Below are positions 18,945-54,762 of a DNA stretch of 64,000 nucleotides, in pieces. This stretch comes from Novosphingobium sp. GTDB lineage: Bacteria > Pseudomonadota > Alphaproteobacteria > Sphingomonadales > Sphingomonadaceae. Where the stretch lies: positions 93,393-157,392 of the forward strand of contig JADJYM010000010.1 of the NCBI GenBank assembly GCA_016719755.1, given 5' to 3'. The number at the start of each line of letters is the position of its first letter. The stretch's first letter is position 1. A program made the translations under genes and the position numbers. The notes below the pieces were generated by a model, which saw only the letters and a program-made list of their open reading frames with translations, made no database searches and was not told the origin of the DNA.

Positions 18945-19841
18945 ATGAACACCGCAGACATGACTGCCAAGATGGCCGCCGGCAACGGCTTTATCGCCGC
19001 GCTCGACCAGTCGGGCGGATCGACCCCCAAGGCGCTGGCCGGTTACGGCATCAGTGAAGATGCCTGGTCGGACGAAGCCGGAATGTTCGATCTGATCCAC
19101 GCCATGCGCGAACGCATCATCATGTCGCCCGCTTTCACTGGCGACAAGGTGATCGGCGCGATCCTGTTCGAGCGCACGATGGACGGCACCGCTGGCGGCA
19201 AGCCGGTTCCCGCTGCCCTGATCGACAAGGGCATCGTCCCCTTCATCAAGATCGACAAGGGCCTTGAGGACGAAGTCAACGGCGTCCAGCTGATGAAGCC
19301 GATGCCGGAACTGGATGCGCTGCTCACCAAGTCCAAGGCGCTTGGCGTCTATGGCACCAAGGAGCGTTCGGTGATCAATTCCGCCAATGCGGAAGGCATT
19401 GCGGCGATCGTCAAGCAGCAGTTTGAAGTCGGCCAGCAGGTGCTCGCCCACGGCATGATGCCGATGATCGAGCCGGAAGTGAACATCAAGAGCGAGACCC
19501 GCGCGGAGTGCGACGCGATCTTGCTCAAGGAAATCCTCAAGGCGCTCGACGCTTTGCCCGAAGGCCAGCAGGTGATGCTCAAGCTGTCGCTGCCGGTGGT
19601 TCCGGGCACGTTCGATCCGCTGGTTCAGCATCCCCGGGTGCTGCGCGTGGTGGCGCTTTCGGGCGGCTACAAGCGCCCCGAGGCCTGCGTTGAACTTGCC
19701 AAGAACAAGGGCATCATCGCCAGCTTCAGCCGGGCGCTGCTCGAAGACCTGCGCGCGCAGATGAGCGACGCGGAATTCGACGCCTCGCTGGGCGGCGCGA
19801 TCGACGAGATCTACAAGGGCTCGACCGTCAAGACCGCCTGA
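18945..19841 (+). CDS. fba: Class I fructose-bisphosphate aldolase
   Basis: 298 residues from the ATG at 18945, which has AGGGAC 9 nt upstream; an earlier ATG at 18921 lacks any ribosome binding site. FIAALDQSGGSTPKALAGYG is the class I aldolase N-terminus, and VMLKLSLPVVPG contains the Schiff-base Lys. Cleaves fructose-1,6-bisphosphate to DHAP and GAP without a metal. Having class I rather than class II after pgk is normal in sphingomonads. Followed by a clear terminator. Confidence 0.93.
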   Translation: MNTADMTAKMAAGNGFIAALDQSGGSTPKALAGYGISEDAWSDEAGMFDLIHAMRERIIMSPAFTGDKVIGAILFERTMDGTAGGKPVPAALIDKGIVPFIKIDKGLEDEVNGVQLMKPMPELDALLTKSKALGVYGTKERSVINSANAEGIAAIVKQQFEVGQQVLAHGMMPMIEPEVNIKSETRAECDAILLKEILKALDALPEGQQVMLKLSLPVVPGTFDPLVQHPRVLRVVALSGGYKRPEACVELAKNKGIIASFSRALLEDLRAQMSDAEFDASLGGAIDEIYKGSTVKTA

Positions 19842-20401: not shown

Positions 20402-20471
20402 AGTCTAGCCGGATTTCCTGAACGGGTGCCGAACACTTGGCCTTGTGGCGCAGTCGGGCTAGGGACGCGCG

Positions 20472-46344: not shown

Positions 46345-46359
46345 GAACATACATGGAAC
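46345..46359. promoter_or_regulatory. LexA (SOS) box upstream of imuA
   Basis: GAAC ATACATG GAAC is an exact copy of the alphaproteobacterial LexA operator GAAC-N7-GAAC. It ends 15 bp before the imuA ATG. Confidence 0.9.
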
Positions 46360-46374
46360 ATAAGGGCGATTTCG

Positions 46375-47136
46375 ATGACTGTTCCAACCCCTCTTTCCGC
46401 CTTCGCGCGCCGTCCTTCCCTGCCGCAGCGGCGCGGGCTGCCTTCCGCTGTGGAGGCTGCGCGCTGGCGTCCCGGGCTACCGGACGGCGCCCTGCATGGC
46501 GAGGTGTTCGCACCGGGCGGAGAAGCCAGCGGCGCCGCCATGGCGCTGGCTCTCGCGCTTGATCGCCTGCGCTCCGCCGCACCCGATCCCGCCGCCGACG
46601 TACCGGACGAGCGTCCGTGGCTGTGGATCCAGGATGCCCAGGCCCGGCGGCTTGGAGGGCGGCCCTATCGCCCCGGCCTGCCGCGCGCCTTGCGTCACCG
46701 CCTGATCCACGTTGCCGCCACCAGCCCGGAAGAGGCGCTGTTCGCCATGGAAGAAGGGCTGCGCTGCCGCGACCTTGCCTTCGTCATCGGCGAAATGGCG
46801 GGCAATCCGCGCGCGCTCGATTTCACCGCGACGCGGCGTCTGTCGCTGATGGCCGGGCAGCACGGCGTGCCCCTGTGGCTGGTGCGGATCGATGCCCGGC
46901 CCGGCCTGTCCTCGGCGCGGCTGCGCTGGCAGGCCCGCGCCGCGCCCTCGCTGCCTGGGCACTGGAATCCGCAGGCTCCCGGTCATCCGGCCTGGCGGGG
47001 CGAACTGTTCCGCGCCCGGGCGCATCCTCCCGGAGAATGGACCCTGCGCGATGATGGACACGTCCTCGCCGCCGACCCGGCGCATCCTCGCGATCTGGTG
47101 TCGCCAGCTGGCGATCGACCGCTGGCGGCTGGCTGA
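46375..47136 (+). CDS. imuA: ImuA, SOS mutasome accessory protein (RecA-like fold)
   Basis: 253 residues. GALHGEVFAPGGEASGAAMA and DERPWLWIQDAQARRLGGRPY with GLRCRDLAFVIGEMAGNPRALDFTATRRLSL match alphaproteobacterial ImuA, a degenerate RecA-like protein without a full Walker motif. It partners ImuB and DnaE2 in error-prone lesion bypass. The gene lies directly behind a LexA box, and imuB overlaps its last 86 nt in another frame. Confidence 0.85.
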   Translation: MTVPTPLSAFARRPSLPQRRGLPSAVEAARWRPGLPDGALHGEVFAPGGEASGAAMALALALDRLRSAAPDPAADVPDERPWLWIQDAQARRLGGRPYRPGLPRALRHRLIHVAATSPEEALFAMEEGLRCRDLAFVIGEMAGNPRALDFTATRRLSLMAGQHGVPLWLVRIDARPGLSSARLRWQARAAPSLPGHWNPQAPGHPAWRGELFRARAHPPGEWTLRDDGHVLAADPAHPRDLVSPAGDRPLAAG

Positions 47137-48610
47137 AGGGCTGCGCGCGGGCGAGGGGGAGGACGCCCTGCCGTTCGCCCTGATCGCCGAGACCGCCCAC
47201 GGCCCGCGCCTCGCCGCCGTCAACGCCGCCGCTTTCGAGGCGGGAGCACGCCCTGGCGCGCTGCTCGCCGATGCCCGTGCGCTGTGCCCTGAGCTGGCGG
47301 TGCGGCCGCACGATCCGGCGGGCGACCTTGCCTTCCTTGAACGCCTTGCGCTGTGGGCGCAGCGGTGGGGGCCGTGGTCCGCGCTTGATCCGCCCGATGG
47401 GCTGCTGGTCGATGTCACCGGCGCCGCCCACCTGTTCGGCGGGGAAGAGGCGCTGCTGGCCGATGCCCTGCGCCGTCTCGCGCTGCGCGGGCTGGCGGCG
47501 CGCGCCGCGCTCGCTCCCACTGCCGGGGCGGCCTGGGCGCTGGCGCATTACGGGCCGGAGCGCGCGATCCTGCATTCCGGCCACTATCTCGACCAGCTTC
47601 CCGTTGCCGCGCTGCGGCTCGATCCCGCGACCGCGCTGGTGCTGCAGCGCCTGGGGCTCAAGCGGATCGCGGACCTGTCCGGCGTGGCCCGCCCGGCGCT
47701 GGCGCGGCGCTTCCGCTCGACCCGCGCGCCGGCCGCCAATCCGCTGGTCCGGCTCGACCAGTTGCTGGGCCGCGTCCCCGAACCGGCGCTTCCGGTGCGC
47801 GGCGTGGAAGTGCCGCTGGTCCAGCGCCGGTTGATGGAGCCGATCCGTCATCGTCCCCTGCTTGACCGCGTGCTGGCGGACCTCTGCGCCGATATGGCGC
47901 GCCTGCTCGAAGGACAGGGGCGGGGTGGGCGGCGCTTTGAACTGGCGCTGTGGAAGATCGATGGCGAAGTGCTTCAGCGCCGCCTCGAACTTGCCGCCGC
48001 CAGCCGCGATGCGGGCCATGTCGCGGGGCTGTTCGCGCAGCGGCTCGATGATCTCGACGCCGGGTTCGGGATCGAGCTTGCCCGCCTGTCTGTCCCCTGG
48101 AGCCAGCCGCTGCCGCTATCCCAGGCCGATTTCGAAGCGGGGGCAGCAGCGCGTGGCACCAGCCTCGCCGCCTGTATCGACCGCTTGTCGGTGCGGCTCG
48201 GCCCGCAGGCGGTGCGCCGCCCGGTGCCGCGCGCCAGCCATGTTCCCGAGCGCGCCCAGCACTGGGTTCCCCCGCTCGATCCGCCCACCGCCGGGCAGGA
48301 GGAACTGGCCTTCCACGCGCGGCCCCTGAAGCTGCTCGATCGCGCGGAGCCGATCGCGGTGCTTTATGCCAGTCCAGATGGCCTGCCGCGCCGGTTCCGC
48401 TGGCGCGGCGCGGTGCACGAGGTGGCGCGCGCCGAAGGGCCGGAGCGGATCGCGCCCGAATGGTGGCGCGAACGCTCGACCGCACGGCTGCGCGACTATT
48501 ACCGGATCGAGGATGGTGAGGGTCGGCGCTACTGGATCTATCGCAGCGGGATCGCCGGGGACGGGCGCGGCGGCACGCCCGAATGGTTCCTCCATGGGCT
48601 GTGCGCCTGA
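47051..48610 (+). CDS. imuB: ImuB, inactive Y-family polymerase-like SOS protein
   Basis: 519 residues from the ATG at 47051, inside imuA (a second ATG follows at once). RRILAIWCRQLAIDRWRLAE starts the DinB-like palm, but the catalytic DE of Y-family polymerases is absent, as in all ImuB. GLLVDVTGAAHLFGGEEALL and the little-finger region follow. A short QPLPLS at 352-357 resembles the QLPLW-type beta-clamp motif reported for ImuB, though it is placed more centrally (inference). The C-terminus RFRWRGAVHEVARAEGPERI and YYRIEDGEGRRYWIYR is characteristic. It acts as the hub that links ImuA, DnaE2 and the sliding clamp. Confidence 0.92.
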   Translation: MMDTSSPPTRRILAIWCRQLAIDRWRLAEGLRAGEGEDALPFALIAETAHGPRLAAVNAAAFEAGARPGALLADARALCPELAVRPHDPAGDLAFLERLALWAQRWGPWSALDPPDGLLVDVTGAAHLFGGEEALLADALRRLALRGLAARAALAPTAGAAWALAHYGPERAILHSGHYLDQLPVAALRLDPATALVLQRLGLKRIADLSGVARPALARRFRSTRAPAANPLVRLDQLLGRVPEPALPVRGVEVPLVQRRLMEPIRHRPLLDRVLADLCADMARLLEGQGRGGRRFELALWKIDGEVLQRRLELAAASRDAGHVAGLFAQRLDDLDAGFGIELARLSVPWSQPLPLSQADFEAGAAARGTSLAACIDRLSVRLGPQAVRRPVPRASHVPERAQHWVPPLDPPTAGQEELAFHARPLKLLDRAEPIAVLYASPDGLPRRFRWRGAVHEVARAEGPERIAPEWWRERSTARLRDYYRIEDGEGRRYWIYRSGIAGDGRGGTPEWFLHGLCA

Positions 48611-48634
48611 AAGGTCTGGACCCTCCGTGCAATG

Positions 48635-48649
48635 GAACATATATAGAAC
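48635..48649. promoter_or_regulatory. LexA (SOS) box at the start of the radical SAM gene
   Basis: GAAC ATATATA GAAC fits GAAC-N7-GAAC exactly. It ends only 2 nt before the ATG at 48652, so the promoter and operator abut or overlap the coding start. Marks an independent SOS-controlled unit for the rSAM-udgX-dnaE2 genes. Confidence 0.88.
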
Positions 48650-48651
48650 AT

Positions 48652-49902
48652 ATGTCCCAGCAGAGCCTGCGCGAACGACTCGCCATTCTTGCCGATGCCG
48701 CCAAGTACGACGCCTCCTGCGCCTCATCCGGCACGGCGCGGCGCACCAGCCGGGGCGGCAAGGGGATTGGTTCGACCGAGGGCATGGGGATCTGCCATGC
48801 CTATGCCCCGGACGGGCGCTGCATCTCGCTGCTCAAAATCCTGCTGACCAATCACTGCATCTTCGATTGCCATTATTGCATCAACCGCAAGAGCTCGAAC
48901 GTGGCGCGGGCGCGCTTCACTCCGCAGGAGGTGGTGGACCTGACGCTGACCTTCTACCGCCGCAACTATATCGAGGGGCTGTTCCTCTCCTCGGGGATCG
49001 TCAAAAGCTCCAGCCACACCATGGAGCAACTGATCGAGGTCGCGCGAATCCTGCGCGAGGAGCACGATTTTCGCGGCTACATCCACCTCAAGACCATTCC
49101 CGAGGCCGATCCCGAACTGGTGCGCCGGGCAGGTCTTCATGCCGACCGGGTCTCGATCAACGTCGAGCTGCCGACGCTCGCCGGGCTGACCCGGCTGGCG
49201 CCGGACAAGAACGCTGCGGTGATCGAGGGGGCGATGGGCGATCTCAAGGGCGCAATCGTCGAGGCGAAGGATGCGCGGCGGCGCTTCCGCTCGGCCCCAC
49301 GCTTCGCCCCGGCAGGACAATCGACCCAGATGATCGTCGGCGCGGACGGCGCCAGCGATGCCGATATCGTCACCCGCGCCAGCACGCTTTATGATCGCTT
49401 CGCCCTGCGCCGGGTCTACTATTCCGCCTTCAGCCCGATCCCCGATGCCAGCGCGGTGCTGCCGCTGCAACGCCCGCCGCTGATTCGCGAGCATCGGCTC
49501 TACCAGTCGGACTGGCTGATGCGGTTCTACGGCTACCGCCCGGACGAGGTGCGCGCCGCCGCCGGCCTGGATGGAATGCTCCCGCTCGACATCGATCCCA
49601 AGCTGGCCTGGGCGCTGAAGTTCCGCGAGGGCTTTCCGGTCGATATCAACCGCGCCCCGCGCGAGCTGCTGCTGCGCGTGCCGGGGCTGGGCACCCGCGC
49701 GGTAGGGGCAATCCTCGCCGCCCGGCGCGAGCGGCGGCTGCGGCTGGAGGACGTGGGCCGGCTTACCGTGTCGCTGGCCAAGGTGCGGCCCTTTATCGTC
49801 GCGGAGGACTGGCGCCCGGTCCTGCTGACCGACCGGGCCGATCTGCGCGCGCTCATCGCTCCGCGCCGCGGTGCGCAGCAGCTTGAACTGTTCGCGGCAT
49901 GA
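48652..49902 (+). CDS. Putative DNA modification/repair radical SAM protein (UdgX-linked, TIGR03916-like)
   Basis: 416 residues from the ATG at 48652. ILADAAKYDASCASSGTARR is the family's N-terminus, the radical SAM cluster is CIFDCHYC (Cys69, Cys73, Cys76, spacing C-x3-C-x2-C), and the C-terminus has a helix-hairpin-helix (VDINRAPRELLLRVPGLGTR). These proteins are always coded beside a uracil-DNA-glycosylase-like protein, but their reaction is unknown; DNA base repair or modification is presumed. The gene overlaps the UdgX start by 4 nt (ATGA). No ribosome binding site is visible, and the start is next to a LexA box. Confidence 0.88.
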   Translation: MSQQSLRERLAILADAAKYDASCASSGTARRTSRGGKGIGSTEGMGICHAYAPDGRCISLLKILLTNHCIFDCHYCINRKSSNVARARFTPQEVVDLTLTFYRRNYIEGLFLSSGIVKSSSHTMEQLIEVARILREEHDFRGYIHLKTIPEADPELVRRAGLHADRVSINVELPTLAGLTRLAPDKNAAVIEGAMGDLKGAIVEAKDARRRFRSAPRFAPAGQSTQMIVGADGASDADIVTRASTLYDRFALRRVYYSAFSPIPDASAVLPLQRPPLIREHRLYQSDWLMRFYGYRPDEVRAAAGLDGMLPLDIDPKLAWALKFREGFPVDINRAPRELLLRVPGLGTRAVGAILAARRERRLRLEDVGRLTVSLAKVRPFIVAEDWRPVLLTDRADLRALIAPRRGAQQLELFAA

Positions 49903-51347
49903 ACGCGCAGCCTGCCCCGGACCTTGCGGAGGCCTGCGCCGTCACTCTCGATGCGCCGGACGATTTTGCCGGCTGGCGCGAGACTGCGCGGCGCCTGCTG
50001 CAACTGCGGGTTCCGCCTGACCGGGTGGTCTGGAGCGTGGCCGGGGAAGAGGCGGGCGATCTCTTCGCCGCCTCCGCATTCGTGCCGGATGCACCCACCG
50101 ATGCCGCTCCGCCCCGGGTGCCGCGCCGGTTCCTGGACCTTGCGGGGAAGGGCCTGCTCCATTCCTGTCCGGATCGCTTCGCGCTGCTCTACCGCCTGCT
50201 GTGGCGTTTGCAGGACCGCCCCGGCCTGCTCGAGGATGCGGCTGACCGGGATGTGCGGAGCCTTGACGAACTGGTCCGCACGGTCCGCCGCGACATCCAC
50301 AAGATGCGGGCCTTCCTGCGCTTCCGCGCGGTGTCTGAGGAAGATGGAGCCGAGCACTACGTCGCCTGGTTCGAACCGCAGCACCATATCCTGCGGGCCA
50401 GTGCGGCTTTCTTCGTCAATCGCTTCACGACGATGCGCTGGGCCATCCTGACCCCGCAAGGTTCGCTCCACTGGGACGGGGAGGTGCTGCGCGAAGGCCC
50501 GCCCGCCCGCCGCGAACAGGCCGCTGGGGGTGATCCGGCCGAAGCGTTGTGGAAGGAGTACTACGCCGCGATCTTCAATCCGGCGCGGCTCAAGGTTGGC
50601 GCCATGCTGAAGGAAATGCCCCGCCGCTACTGGAAGAACATGCCCGAGGCGGAACTGATCCCAGCGCTGATCGCGGGTGCTCAGGCGCGCGAAAGCGCGA
50701 TGGTTGAACGCGGCGCGGCGCTGTTCGTAGGGCCACGTCCGGCCTCGCTTGCTGCCGTTGCCGAAGGAATCGCCACGTGCCGCCGCTGCGCCATCGGCTG
50801 CAATGGCACTCGCGCCGTGGCGGGCGAGGGGAGTGCCCGCGCCGAGCTGATGATCGTCGGTGAACAGCCCGGTGACACCGAGGAGCCGCGCGGGCGGCCC
50901 TTCATCGGCCCCGCCGGACAGGTACTGCGCACCCGCCTCAAGGCAGCGGGAATCGATCCCGAGCGGGCCTGGCTGACCAATGCGGTCAAGCATTTCAAGT
51001 TCGAGGACCGGGGCACGGGCAAGCGGCGGCTGCACCAGAACCCCACCGCGCGTGAGATCGACGTCTGCCGCTGGTGGGTCGAAAGCGAGCGCCTGCTGGT
51101 CCGCCCCCGCCTGATCCTCGCGCTGGGGGCCAGTGCGGCGCGCAGTGTGCTGGGCCGGACGGTCAGCGTCCAGAGCCTGCGCGGTAAGGCCATGGTGCTG
51201 GAGGATGGGGCGGAGCTGTGGATCACCATTCACCCGTCCTACCTCCTGCGGCTTGGCGAGGATGCGCGCGAGACGGAGGAGCAGCGCTTCGCCGCTGATC
51301 TTGGCCGGGCCGCGGCGCGCCTGCGGGAACTCGCACCCGGGGTCTGA
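49899..51347 (+). CDS. Fusion of DUF4130-like (SAM-linked repair) domain and UdgX uracil-DNA binding protein
   Basis: 482 residues. The N-terminal half contains DIHKMRAFLRFRAVSEEDGA and WFEPQHHILRASAAFFVNRF, the DUF4130/TIGR03915 signature. The C-terminal half is a family 4-like uracil-DNA glycosylase: Fe-S Cys at 294, 297 and 301 with another further on, water-activating motif GEQPGD (321-326), RPFIGPAGQVL, and the UdgX-specific basic loop, here GKRRLHQNP (KRRLH 375-379, with His379 as the residue that crosslinks to uracil-DNA in UdgX), then TIHPSYLLR. UdgX binds uracil in DNA irreversibly instead of turning over. It sits 4 nt before dnaE2 in one operon with the radical SAM gene. Confidence 0.88.
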   Translation: MNAQPAPDLAEACAVTLDAPDDFAGWRETARRLLQLRVPPDRVVWSVAGEEAGDLFAASAFVPDAPTDAAPPRVPRRFLDLAGKGLLHSCPDRFALLYRLLWRLQDRPGLLEDAADRDVRSLDELVRTVRRDIHKMRAFLRFRAVSEEDGAEHYVAWFEPQHHILRASAAFFVNRFTTMRWAILTPQGSLHWDGEVLREGPPARREQAAGGDPAEALWKEYYAAIFNPARLKVGAMLKEMPRRYWKNMPEAELIPALIAGAQARESAMVERGAALFVGPRPASLAAVAEGIATCRRCAIGCNGTRAVAGEGSARAELMIVGEQPGDTEEPRGRPFIGPAGQVLRTRLKAAGIDPERAWLTNAVKHFKFEDRGTGKRRLHQNPTAREIDVCRWWVESERLLVRPRLILALGASAARSVLGRTVSVQSLRGKAMVLEDGAELWITIHPSYLLRLGEDARETEEQRFAADLGRAAARLRELAPGV

Positions 51348-51351
51348 TGCC

Positions 51352-54300
51352 ATGCCCGAGGCTCCGCTTACCCCGCCGCGCCGCCATGCCGGTGAGGCCG
51401 GCCTGCCGCCGCCCCTTCGTGCGCCCTTCGTCGAACTGGGGCTGGCAACGTGCTTTTCGTTTCTACGCGGTGCTTCGGACGCGGTGGATCTTGCCACCAC
51501 CGCCCGGGCGCTTGGCTACGACGCACTGGGGATCGCGGACGCCAATACCATGGCCGGGGTGGTGCGCTTTCACACCGAAGCCAAGGCGTTGGGCCTGCGC
51601 CCGGTGATCGGTTGCCGGATCGAGACGGTCGAGGGGCTGCATTTCCTTGCCTTTCCGGCTGACCGCGCGGCCTATGGGCGCCTCTGCCGCCTGATCTCGA
51701 CGGGGCGCATGGCCCGGCTCGACGGCGAATGGCAGGACAAGGGCGCCTGCGACATCTCGCTCACCATGCTGGCCGCGCACAGCGCGGGCGTGCATCTGGT
51801 TCTGCTGCCGCCGGATGACCTGTCATTCAACTTCACTATTGAGGCTCAAAGCAATGTAGTTGAACTGAAATCTGAATCATTGGCACCGCAGGCAACCATG
51901 CTCACGGCGCCCTTTCCAGACCTTCTCCCGCATCTTTCCACAAAGTTGTCCACACTGCGCCACCTTGCCGCCAGTTACCTCTACACCGGCGACGACATTG
52001 CCCGGATCAACGCGCTCGACGCCATGGCGCGCGGTGCGGGGTTGTCGATCCTTGCCACCAACCAGGTGCTTTATCACGCGGCGCAGCGGCGGCCGCTGCA
52101 CGACGTGATGACCGCGATCCGCCACAAGACCACCGTTGCCGCCGCCGGCCACCTGCTGCGCCCCAATGCCGAGCGGCACCTGAAATCGCCCGGCGAGATG
52201 GCTCGCCTGTTCGCCGCCTGGCCCCATGCCCTGGCCGCCGCGCGCGATCTGGCCGATGTCTGCACGTTCAGCCTGGACGAATTGTGTTACGAGTATCCGG
52301 AAGAAACCTGCCCCAAGGGCCTGGAGCCGCAGGATTATCTTGAAGAGCTGACCTGGCGGGGCGCGGCGCGGCGCTATCCCGAAGGCCTGCCCGAAGCCGT
52401 GCGCGATACGCTGGAGCGGGAACTCGCCCTGATCGGCAAGCTGGACCTTGCCCGCTATTTTCTGACCATCAAGGACATCGTCGATTTCGCCCGCGCGCAG
52501 GATCCGCCGATCCTGTGTCAGGGGCGCGGCAGCGCGGCCAATTCGGCGGTGTGCTATTGCCTGGAGATCACCGCGGTCGATCCTGCGCGCCATGCCCTGC
52601 TGTTCGACCGCTTCATTTCCGAGGAACGCAAGGAGCCGCCCGACATCGATGTCGACTTTGAGCATGAGCGGCGTGAGGAGGTAATTCAGTATATCTATCA
52701 ACGCTATGGTCGCCAGCGCGCGGGGCTTTGCGCGACAGTGATCCACTACCGCCCGCGCATGGCGATCCGCGAGGTGGGCAAGGCCATGGGCCTGTCGGAA
52801 GACATCACCGCAGCGCTCGCCAAGACTGTCTGGGGCAGCCACGGTCGGTCGATCAAGGAGGCTCACATCGCCACCGAAACGGGGCTTAACCTCACCGACC
52901 CGCATCTCAGGCGCGTTCTGGCGCTCACCGAACAGATGATCGGCATGCCCCGCCACCTTTCGCAGCACGTCGGCGGTTTCATCCTCACCCAGGGCCTGCT
53001 GACCGAGACCGTTCCGATCGGCAACGGCGCCATGGCGGAGCGATCCTTCATCGAATGGGACAAGGATGACATCGACGCGCTCGGTATCCTCAAGGTCGAT
53101 GTCCTGGCGCTGGGTATGCTGACCTGCATCAGGAAGGCGCTGGACCTGGTGCGTGGTCATCACGGCAAGGCTCTGACCCTTGCCAGCGTCCCGCGTGAGG
53201 ATCCGGCGGTCTACGACATGCTGTGCCGGGGGGATTCGCTGGGCGTGTTCCAGGTCGAGAGCCGGGCGCAGATGAACATGCTGCCGCGCCTGCGGCCGCG
53301 CTGCTTTTACGATCTGGTGATCGAGGTGGCGATCGTGCGCCCCGGGCCGATCCAGGGCGACATGGTGCATCCCTATCTCAAGCGGCGGCGCGGGGCGGAA
53401 AGGGTTGAGATTCCCGCCCCCGCGCCGGAGCACGGCCCGCCGGACGAACTGACCAGCATCCTTGGGCGCACCCTTGGCGTGCCGATCTTCCAGGAACAGG
53501 CGATGAAGATCGCGCTGGATGCCGCGCAGTTTTCCAGCGCCGAGGCGAACCGCCTGCGCAAGGCGATGGCGACCTTCCGTTCGCGGGGGATGGTCCACGA
53601 ACTGGAAGAGATGATGGTCGGGCGGATGATCGCGCGGGGCTATGACGCCGAATTCGCGGCGCGCTGCTTCAACCAGATCAAGGGTTTCGGCGAATACGGC
53701 TTTCCCGAAAGCCATGCCGCCAGCTTCGCGCTGCTGGTCTATGTCTCGTCCTGGCTGAAGTGCCACTACCCGGCGGCGTTTGCCTGCGCCCTGCTCAATT
53801 CCCAGCCGATGGGCTTCTACGCCCCCGCCCAGATCGTCCGCGATGCGCGCGAGCATGGGGTGGAGGTGCTGGCGGTGGATGTGAACTTTTCGGATTGGGA
53901 CAATGGGCTGGAAAGAACGGGTTCGCGCGAACCCGGAATCGCGCTGCGCCTCGGCCTGCGTCAGGTCGATGGCTTTCCGGAAGCCGCCGCCGCACGGATC
54001 GTCGCGGCGCGTGTTGAGGGCGGGCCGTTCCGCGACGTGCGCGAATTGAAGGAGCGGGCCGGCCTGTCCCCGGCGCTGGTCGAGCGGCTGGCGAACGCCG
54101 ATTGCCTTGGCTCGCTGGGGCTTACCCGGCGGCAGGCGCTGTGGGACGCGCGCAGCCTGATCGCCGCGCCCGACCTGCCGCTGTTCGCCGCCATGACGTC
54201 ACGCGATGAGGGGGAGGAACGGCAGAAAACCGTGCTTCCCGCAATGCCCCTGTCCGAGGAGGTGGTGGCCGACTACCAGACCCAGCGCTTGTCCTTGAAA

Positions 54301-54762
54301 GCCCACCCGCTCGCCTTCCTGCGCGCGGGGCTGGCCGAACGGGGGTTCATCCGCGCCGCCGACCTGCGCCAGCGCAAGTACCGCTCCGCCGTGCAGGTGG
54401 CGGGCGTGGTGCTGATCCGCCAGCGCCCGGGCAGCGCCAAAGGGGTGTGCTTCATCACCCTGGAGGACGAGAGCGGGGTGGTGAACCTCGTCATCTGGCC
54501 CGACCTGATGGAAAAGCAGCGCAAGGTGATCATGGGCGCGCGGCTGATGGAAGTGCGCGGCCGGGTGGAATACGACGACGAGGTAATCCACGTGATCGCG
54601 ACGCACCTGACCGACGCAACGCCGGCGCTGCACGCCCTGTCGGACGATCTGCTGCCGCAGACGCTGGACCGCGCCGATGAAGTGCGCCGCTCCATGCCGG
54701 AAAGCCGGGGCGGGCACCCGCGCGACGCGCGGGTGATCCCCAAATCACGCGATTTTCATTGA
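51352..54762 (+). CDS. dnaE2: Error-prone DNA polymerase DnaE2
   Basis: 1136 residues from the ATG at 51352. PHP domain (ELGLATCFSFLRGASDAVDL), polymerase palm with QGRGSAANSAVCYCLEIT and DIDVDFEHERREEVIQYIYQ (catalytic Asp residues), GDSLGVFQVESRAQMNMLPR, FNQIKGFGEYGFPESHA, and a C-terminal OB domain. DnaE2 inserts opposite lesions with ImuA/ImuB. The region around residues 156-200 is unusual: an AT-richer stretch in an otherwise GC-rich gene. The open frame upstream overlaps udgX and is not coding. Confidence 0.95.
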   Translation: MPEAPLTPPRRHAGEAGLPPPLRAPFVELGLATCFSFLRGASDAVDLATTARALGYDALGIADANTMAGVVRFHTEAKALGLRPVIGCRIETVEGLHFLAFPADRAAYGRLCRLISTGRMARLDGEWQDKGACDISLTMLAAHSAGVHLVLLPPDDLSFNFTIEAQSNVVELKSESLAPQATMLTAPFPDLLPHLSTKLSTLRHLAASYLYTGDDIARINALDAMARGAGLSILATNQVLYHAAQRRPLHDVMTAIRHKTTVAAAGHLLRPNAERHLKSPGEMARLFAAWPHALAAARDLADVCTFSLDELCYEYPEETCPKGLEPQDYLEELTWRGAARRYPEGLPEAVRDTLERELALIGKLDLARYFLTIKDIVDFARAQDPPILCQGRGSAANSAVCYCLEITAVDPARHALLFDRFISEERKEPPDIDVDFEHERREEVIQYIYQRYGRQRAGLCATVIHYRPRMAIREVGKAMGLSEDITAALAKTVWGSHGRSIKEAHIATETGLNLTDPHLRRVLALTEQMIGMPRHLSQHVGGFILTQGLLTETVPIGNGAMAERSFIEWDKDDIDALGILKVDVLALGMLTCIRKALDLVRGHHGKALTLASVPREDPAVYDMLCRGDSLGVFQVESRAQMNMLPRLRPRCFYDLVIEVAIVRPGPIQGDMVHPYLKRRRGAERVEIPAPAPEHGPPDELTSILGRTLGVPIFQEQAMKIALDAAQFSSAEANRLRKAMATFRSRGMVHELEEMMVGRMIARGYDAEFAARCFNQIKGFGEYGFPESHAASFALLVYVSSWLKCHYPAAFACALLNSQPMGFYAPAQIVRDAREHGVEVLAVDVNFSDWDNGLERTGSREPGIALRLGLRQVDGFPEAAAARIVAARVEGGPFRDVRELKERAGLSPALVERLANADCLGSLGLTRRQALWDARSLIAAPDLPLFAAMTSRDEGEERQKTVLPAMPLSEEVVADYQTQRLSLKAHPLAFLRAGLAERGFIRAADLRQRKYRSAVQVAGVVLIRQRPGSAKGVCFITLEDESGVVNLVIWPDLMEKQRKVIMGARLMEVRGRVEYDDEVIHVIATHLTDATPALHALSDDLLPQTLDRADEVRRSMPESRGGHPRDARVIPKSRDFH

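Follow-up and report, generated by a model that had tools for sequence, protein, structure and literature searches.

A predicted SOS-controlled radical SAM-DUF4130 module with a clamp-type peptide joins the ImuA-ImuB-DnaE2 mutasome operon in Sphingomonadales

Mutasomes of ImuA, ImuB and DnaE2 are described from Caulobacter and mycobacteria, in which imuA, imuB and dnaE2 come with LexA boxes and ImuB carries a clamp-type motif. The same holds for a locus at positions 46,345 to 54,762 of the window, our term for the whole 64,000-nucleotide (nt) stretch of Novosphingobium sp. contig JADJYM010000010.1 analyzed here. Unlike in the described mutasomes, imuB and dnaE2 are split at this locus by a radical S-adenosylmethionine (SAM) gene (rSAM) and udgX, a pair led by its own LexA box, with no box between udgX and dnaE2. 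A second relative is the SOS-regulated two-gene COG1573-COG4277 operon reported from Bacteroidetes and, by citation, from Verrucomicrobia and Alphaproteobacteria (PMC8565304). In that operon a uracil-DNA glycosylase (UDG) gene and its partner stand under LexA control, as they are predicted to do here; the published operon consists of two genes, whereas here the two are joined to a mutasome operon. The same paper reads the operon as base excision repair, and its main text mentions neither UdgX nor DUF4130.

UdgX of Mycobacterium smegmatis (PDB 6ajr and relatives) shares the motifs GEQPG, KRR(I/L)H and HPS with the window's protein at about 42% identity; unlike the mycobacterial enzyme, UdgX is here fused behind DUF4130 and placed with rSAM under a LexA box. 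The precise role of UdgX has been called largely unknown (PMC10359453). The association of DUF4130, SplB-like radical SAM proteins and UDG seen here is already in PMC3765255, whose available parts contain neither a gene order inside imuB-dnaE2 nor a clamp peptide. SOS control of the UDG-COG4277 operon is thus published, and what we add is a clamp-type peptide at the end of rSAM. The arrangement is real and conserved, a variant of a known SOS module. On balance, and judging from sequence, we favor a reading in which rSAM is an SOS-induced enzyme that docks on the clamp and processes bases, with UdgX as an optional trap for uracil and with expression, at this locus, together with the mutasome.

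Gene products and LexA boxes at the locus

The rSAM gene (48652..49902, plus strand) encodes a 416-residue protein that scored 556 bits against TIGR03916, a radical SAM DNA modification/repair family with a cut-off of 343.5 that we take to be COG4277. Its CX3CX2C motif spans residues 69-76 and is present in 140 of the 141 rSAM loci we collected, and a helix-hairpin-helix near residue 344 is indicated by a weak HHH_3 match (21.5 bits against a Pfam cut-off of 27). The next gene (49899..51347, plus strand) encodes a 482-residue fusion of TIGR03915 (residues 19-251) and TIGR03914 (residues 253-469). Its DUF4130 domain (TIGR03915/PF13566; 49953..50651, plus strand) scored 215 bits against a cut-off of 112, and its UdgX domain (TIGR03914; 50655..51305, plus strand) 282 bits against 190. 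The UdgX domain contains GEQPG, TNAVKHF, KRRLH and HPS, with the cross-linking His in the R-loop (KRRLH, residues 375-379).

The mutasome genes flank this pair, all on the plus strand. Downstream, dnaE2 (51352..54762; start chosen within a longer open reading frame) encodes a 1136-residue error-prone DNA polymerase with a PDIDVDF motif and 1392 bits against NF004225 (cut-off 939). Upstream lies imuB (47054..48610, with ATG 47054 likewise chosen within a longer frame), whose Y-family-like product carries IMS (PF00817) and DUF6504 (PF20114), with IMS_C marginally under the Pfam cut-off (20.5 versus 20.7). The open reading frame in front of it, imuA (46375..47136; 253 residues), scored only 24 bits against NF033429, below the cut-off of 150. 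Homologues at 52-66% identity occupy the equivalent place in loci with the same gene order, so the name ImuA rests on position and conservation and is the weakest of the five. The DnaE2 score, the ImuB domains and the leading LexA box place the locus among mutasomes; the ImuA score does not. All five reading frames are intact. We made no use of a promoter scan (1 match versus 0.7 expected) or of terminator-like sites (7 versus 4.2 expected).

An earlier note on this DNA had described imuA-imuB and rSAM-udgX-dnaE2 as two units, each behind a LexA box, with junctions of at most 4 nt inside the second, and we recovered all of this. GTTCN7GTTC is the alphaproteobacterial direct-repeat LexA box (PMC8565304), and exact copies on the minus strand precede imuA (GTTCCATGTATGTTC, 46345..46359) and rSAM (GTTCTATATATGTTC, 48635..48649), the latter ending 2 nt 5' of the start codon. 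The rSAM and udgX frames share 4 nt (ATGA), and 4 nt separate the udgX stop from the dnaE2 ATG. The palindrome GAACN7GTTC, tried first as the LexA box, is absent at the locus, where the direct repeat is present instead. In the whole window GTTCN7GTTC occurs five times against 1.16 expected; the three further matches (19599-19613, 19692-19706 and 20420-20434) all fall inside 0.9 kb. The form GTTCN6TGTTC has 21 copies in the source genome versus 6 for the reversed pattern. Four gene fronts at such sites were searched in NCBIfam and gave uvrA, recN, a uvrD/pcrA-type helicase and one weak match, which argues that the motif marks SOS genes in this genome.

We scanned species-representative genomes for rSAM and examined the best 80 of at least 594 relatives, nearly all Sphingomonadales, with a few titled only Alphaproteobacteria or Pseudomonadota. 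Of these 80 loci, 78 carried GTTCN7GTTC no more than 100 nt ahead of the rSAM start codon, and by eye the two misses were one base off. The box was also found within this distance in all 23 rSAM-bearing genomes from other alphaproteobacterial orders (class and phylum draws) and at five of six alphaproteobacterial plasmid loci, the sixth having its box at -108. Four control patterns gave 0 or 1 match per set. The box is kept whether or not a mutasome lies nearby, and in six alphaproteobacterial loci without UdgX.

Outside the Alphaproteobacteria, none of six rSAM loci had GTTCN7GTTC. Four of the six instead had an exact E. coli-type CTGTN8ACAG upstream of rSAM (at -24, -21, -21 and -47), a pattern with one other copy across the 94,788 bases of these loci; the remaining two had neither motif. 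In Caballeronia a CTGTN8ACAG-type box was seen by eye in the stretch upstream of rSAM. The exchange of one box for the other suggests that the SOS link outlived a change of LexA motif, and predicted SOS control is a constant feature of the rSAM module. As a separate observation, one locus (L098, genome G250) has a truncated rSAM matching profile positions 270-399 only, beside UdgX and with a GTTCN7GTTC box still near.

A clamp-type peptide on rSAM and its proposed use

The window's rSAM ends in RRGAQQLELFAA, which contains the beta-clamp-type peptide QLELF at residues 410-414 (49879..49893, plus strand). The bacterial clamp consensus is QL(S/D)LF, usually C-terminal (PMC9690074, PMC3716654), and mycobacterial ImuB uses QLPLWG, whose mutant phenocopies an imuB deletion (PMC10421592). 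Q..[LMI]F occurred in the last 40 residues at 119 of the 141 rSAM loci, a set with duplicate entries for some genomes and for the window and with one protein truncated at its front (L098); the remaining 22 tails have similar endings, for example QLSLL, QLSLAF, QLGFGF and QMALW. We thinned the set to 104 representatives, of which 87 had the strict form Q[LM].LF in the last 14 residues, compared with an average of 0.048 and a maximum of 2 in shuffled tails. The same test gave none among 37 ImuA, 35 ImuB, 111 UdgX and 31 DnaE2 proteins; one UdgX holds the strict form away from its C-terminus. A relaxed form, defined after viewing the data, matched all 104 representatives versus 0.84 in shuffles. 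Six distant rSAM members (35-61% identity) that represent four phyla (Betaproteobacteria, Bacteroidota, Bacillota and Gemmatimonadota) carry QLSLI, QLILPF, QLSLF, QLSLF, QLSIF and QLSLW in their last 26 residues, and two of the six fit the strict form.

Within the window's mutasome, ImuB has an internal clamp-type hexapeptide, QEELAF (residues 415-420), and no clamp-type pattern was found in DnaE2 or UdgX. The pattern Q..L.[FL] is a loose one for ImuB: anywhere in the protein it occurs in 25 of 35 ImuB, 3 of 37 ImuA, 14 of 111 UdgX and 6 of 31 DnaE2 sequences. This looseness tempers the comparison with ImuB, and the peptide on rSAM would itself be an indication of clamp binding rather than proof.

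Based on these features, we propose that an SOS mutasome operon (imuA-imuB and dnaE2) has been joined to a separate and more widespread SOS module of rSAM and DUF4130. The gene order, the LexA boxes, the rSAM-DUF4130 partnership, the motifs, the clamp-type peptide and two separate unions with the mutasome can be read directly from the genomes; the steps that follow are our proposal. The C-terminal peptide suggests that, after damage, rSAM would dock on the sliding clamp, the hub to which ImuB, and through ImuB DnaE2, is recruited. There rSAM and DUF4130 would act jointly on DNA bases and, at sites of stalling or gaps, process a lesion or a base that is unwanted. UdgX, fused to DUF4130, would serve as a trap: it would excise uracil, cap the abasic site left behind through a covalent bond and so shield uracil and abasic positions against breakage. 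DnaE2 would finally fill or bypass.

The LexA boxes, the rSAM-DUF4130 partnership and the clamp-type peptide all point to DNA at the clamp during the SOS response. If the peptide works, a radical SAM enzyme joins the clamp tool-belt, and SOS mutagenesis in many alphaproteobacteria would include a step of base processing that has gone unstudied and could influence the mutation spectrum. Apparent clamp docking of rSAM also makes a poorly understood repair pathway testable. At the level of titles and listings, openly licensed PMC literature gave no report, among the matches listed, of a radical SAM enzyme at the sliding clamp; as far as these searches show, TIGR03916 would be the first. The broader proposal, that TIGR03916 and DUF4130 form a widespread SOS-induced DNA repair enzyme on the beta clamp, joined to the mutasome in two lineages as a repair-and-bypass complex on one clamp, strikes us as falling a little short of an even prospect. 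In Acinetobacter, a radical SAM gene annotated with the TIGR03916 family name rose on desiccation (PMC13130816).

The rSAM-DUF4130 partnership and its candidate chemistry

We drew 150 genomes evenly from across the phylum and found TIGR03916 and TIGR03915 above their cut-offs in the identical set of 28. A further even draw covered 118 Sphingomonadales genomes, including the source genome; 45 had rSAM over the cut-off, and in all 45 UdgX lay within 4 kb downstream on the same strand. Beyond this order the association with UdgX is looser: among 29 non-Sphingomonadales loci, DUF4130 continues into a UdgX domain in 19, and the other ten have a stand-alone DUF4130 protein of 277-325 residues with no UdgX match in the stretch. 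These ten comprise 6 of 23 alphaproteobacterial loci (L140, L144-L147 and L159; 277-324 residues) and 4 of 6 loci from elsewhere (L160, L161, L163 and L164). The same layout, rSAM and then a TIGR03915 protein standing alone, is seen in records from Parabacteroides, Spirosoma and Pusillibacter. Conversely, two genomes (G045 and G079) have UdgX without rSAM in short frames of 229 and 253 residues, leaving no room for DUF4130. These loci suggest that rSAM and DUF4130 are the constant enzyme and UdgX an add-on: as far as gene content tells, the obligate unit is rSAM with DUF4130, and UdgX is optional.

We know of no reaction assigned to rSAM or DUF4130, and the structure models help on the UdgX side. 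The DUF4130-UdgX model (predicted local distance difference test, pLDDT, 86.6) matched UdgX structure 6ajr in Foldseek at E 2.7e-19, and the best 50 of 567 matches were to UdgX and other members of the UDG superfamily, plus two further chains. Of 108 UdgX loci, 107 retain R.H with the cross-linking His, one of them (L162) through a doubtful match. Several results on the side of chemistry weigh against the reading we favor. DUF4130 found no structural match among those best 50 of 567. The rSAM model is poor (pLDDT 65.4), its best Foldseek match reached E 2.6e-3, and its best 50 matches mix radical SAM barrels, other barrels and unrelated proteins; we discarded it as evidence. With a poor rSAM model and no DUF4130 match, the proposed substrate draws no structural support. 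All four strict UdgX patterns are intact in only 75 of 103 loci, L023 has Asn in place of the cross-linking His, and the ten stand-alone DUF4130 loci would have to manage without an adjoining trap.

Two other chemistries can be set against these results. rSAM and DUF4130 could form a direct-reversal photolesion enzyme, like spore photoproduct lyase and acting for example on pyrimidine dimers, with UdgX handling uracil from deaminated dimerised cytosine. A SplB-like reading and a suggested thymine modification are in print (PMC3765255), and the radical SAM motif, the weak helix-hairpin-helix match and the predicted SOS control all fit. Yet at E 0.001 NCBIfam matches rSAM to TIGR03916 alone, with no membership in the spore photoproduct lyase family; no such lyase appears among the best 50 Foldseek matches of the poor model; and members occur on plasmids of gut bacteria (Parabacteroides, Pusillibacter), where ultraviolet exposure is not obvious. 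We regard photolesion reversal as improbable.

The pair could also mainly guard uracil or abasic sites in single-stranded DNA at the fork, with UdgX as the active part and rSAM resolving or preparing the covalent adduct. The conserved UdgX residues would suit such a task, and a protective role for UdgX has been proposed (PMC10359453). It is countered by rSAM and DUF4130 without adjoining UdgX, both in the ten loci and in the Parabacteroides, Spirosoma and Pusillibacter records, and by UdgX without rSAM in G045 and G079. Neither partner thus seems to need the other next door (UdgX elsewhere in these genomes was not searched for), and we consider a guarding role for the pair very doubtful. The same loci bear on the earlier note, which had proposed handling of uracil or another base lesion: with UdgX optional, the shared chemistry need not be uracil handling.

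Several further observations concern UdgX and its neighborhood. A motif scan placed a hemerythrin-domain gene (PF01814; 59 bits for the copy in L034) between rSAM and udgX at 17 of 75 loci (L034, L035, L047, L057, L058 and others; Sphingomonas, Novosphingobium, Stakelama, Sphingobium and unplaced genomes), putting an iron/oxygen protein within the LexA-box operon of a radical SAM enzyme. On contig C2 of G024 the UdgX match is split across two frames and is possibly frameshifted. Among 40 rows sampled from 438 plasmid records, many from Rhizobium and Sinorhizobium plasmids (H44-H66) match the C-terminal UdgX part only, and stand-alone UdgX seems common in rhizobia. Another match of the UdgX domain (Foldseek E 2.6e-7, phmmer E 2e-4) is to a phage DNA polymerase of family A, PDB 9qhs, which suggests a UDG-type domain joined to a polymerase in phage.

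Union with the mutasome

The embedded order, with imuA-imuB upstream of the pair and dnaE2 downstream, is conserved, so the outcome that would have refuted the earlier note, an order confined to this genome, did not occur. The order is present in 22 of the best 80 loci; a further 3 are partial, 12 are truncated at contig ends, 4 have the same flanking genes but no mutasome there, and 39 are elsewhere. In the Sphingomonadales draw it is found in 18 of the 118 genomes, the source genome included; of the 45 with rSAM, one more is partial and one has the pair without ImuB or DnaE2. We therefore rejected the possibility that the union is unique to the source genome. A LexA box precedes imuA in 22 of 22 embedded loci, and no exact box lies between udgX and dnaE2 in the window or in any of the 22. 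The udgX-dnaE2 junction measures -1 to +14 nt in 19 of 22, with imuB-rSAM spacers of 42 to 2820 nt. From the missing box and the tight junction, dnaE2 in embedded lineages is probably co-transcribed with, and made from, the rSAM-udgX transcript.

A tree of rSAM places every one of the 23 embedded rows, the window's among them, in a single 38-row clade (support 100/100) that also contains non-embedded rows, and the tree requires 11 changes of the embedded label. A single origin followed by later losses is the simplest reading of this pattern, of which the tree is not proof. A second union appears in three genomes of 7-8 Mb from another alphaproteobacterial genus (g208; L137-L139), where rSAM-DUF4130-UdgX and imuA-imuB-dnaE2 are divergent with a single LexA box between them. 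This geometry is unlike the window's, and the g208 union most likely arose separately. A rough estimate, for nine families that have both genes and with a target of 20 kb in 5 Mb assumed, puts the probability of at least two unions by chance at about 6e-4.

The pair and the mutasome are nevertheless often apart, which weighs against a common mechanism and invites the alternative that they are functionally independent SOS units that use one promoter because this is convenient for regulation, their linkage being a by-product of easily shared LexA boxes. Pair and mutasome stand apart in 25 of the 45 pair-bearing Sphingomonadales, and 41 of the 118 have mutasome genes without the rSAM pair; 32 have neither rSAM, pair nor mutasome genes. 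Among the 23 genomes from other alphaproteobacterial orders, 20 have no mutasome gene match within about 15-17 kb around rSAM. Beside an APC-type transporter and/or phoB (not all loci show both flanks), every state occurs: loci with both units; loci with only the mutasome, where imuB and dnaE2 are adjacent (L168-L170, L173); loci with only the pair (L003, L016, L021, L037, L174); and imuAB with dnaE2 behind a LexA box and no pair (L171, L172). The box before dnaE2 in the last two looks like the footprint of a lost rSAM-udgX, and loss of the pair evidently leaves imuB-dnaE2 intact. The embedded state may also be one event inherited inside one clade. Finally, the rSAM box is present irrespective of neighbors, and six genomes (G099, G162, G344, G370, G377 and G441) have the pair without DnaE2 over the cut-off.

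Independence of the two units is in turn hard to square with two unions of different geometry, at the rough chance given above, with a clamp-type peptide on rSAM, and with a udgX-dnaE2 junction that stays tight despite widely varying imuB-rSAM spacers. We consider it somewhat unlikely. A pair that is separable and exists without DnaE2 did lead us to reject it as a required mutasome subunit. Of eight genomes with no mutasome beside the pair, seven have a DnaE2-like gene elsewhere (54-75% identity); for the eighth (L036) nothing beyond a DnaE1-like match (32% identity) turned up. In the 150-genome draw, DnaE2 accompanies the pair in 23 of 28 genomes versus 36 of the 122 others (strong by Fisher test), a contrast that we do not lean on because phylogeny and genome size confound it.

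These distributions divide the earlier note's proposal that handling of uracil or another base lesion is built into the SOS response. What survives is that base-handling genes stand under the mutasome's predicted SOS control, an arrangement conserved far beyond this genome. Its suggested example, in which the pair would treat bases ahead of their copying by DnaE2, is unsupported in that form, the pair being boxed without a nearby mutasome and present without DnaE2 over the cut-off. What the clamp-type peptide of rSAM does support is a shared place of work with ImuB and DnaE2; it does not support a particular sequence of action.

Two minor observations concern dnaE2. On contig C28 of G352 its match consists of two adjacent pieces and is possibly frameshifted. 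Plasmids of Roseobacter litoralis, Pontibrevibacter and Paracoccus (H71-H77 and H79-H85) carry a DnaE2 that is 61-64% identical to the window's. The ImuA match lies about 1.5 kb from it, a distance into which an rSAM-udgX pair would not fit; by their sequences, mutasomes near the window type appear to occur on plasmids.

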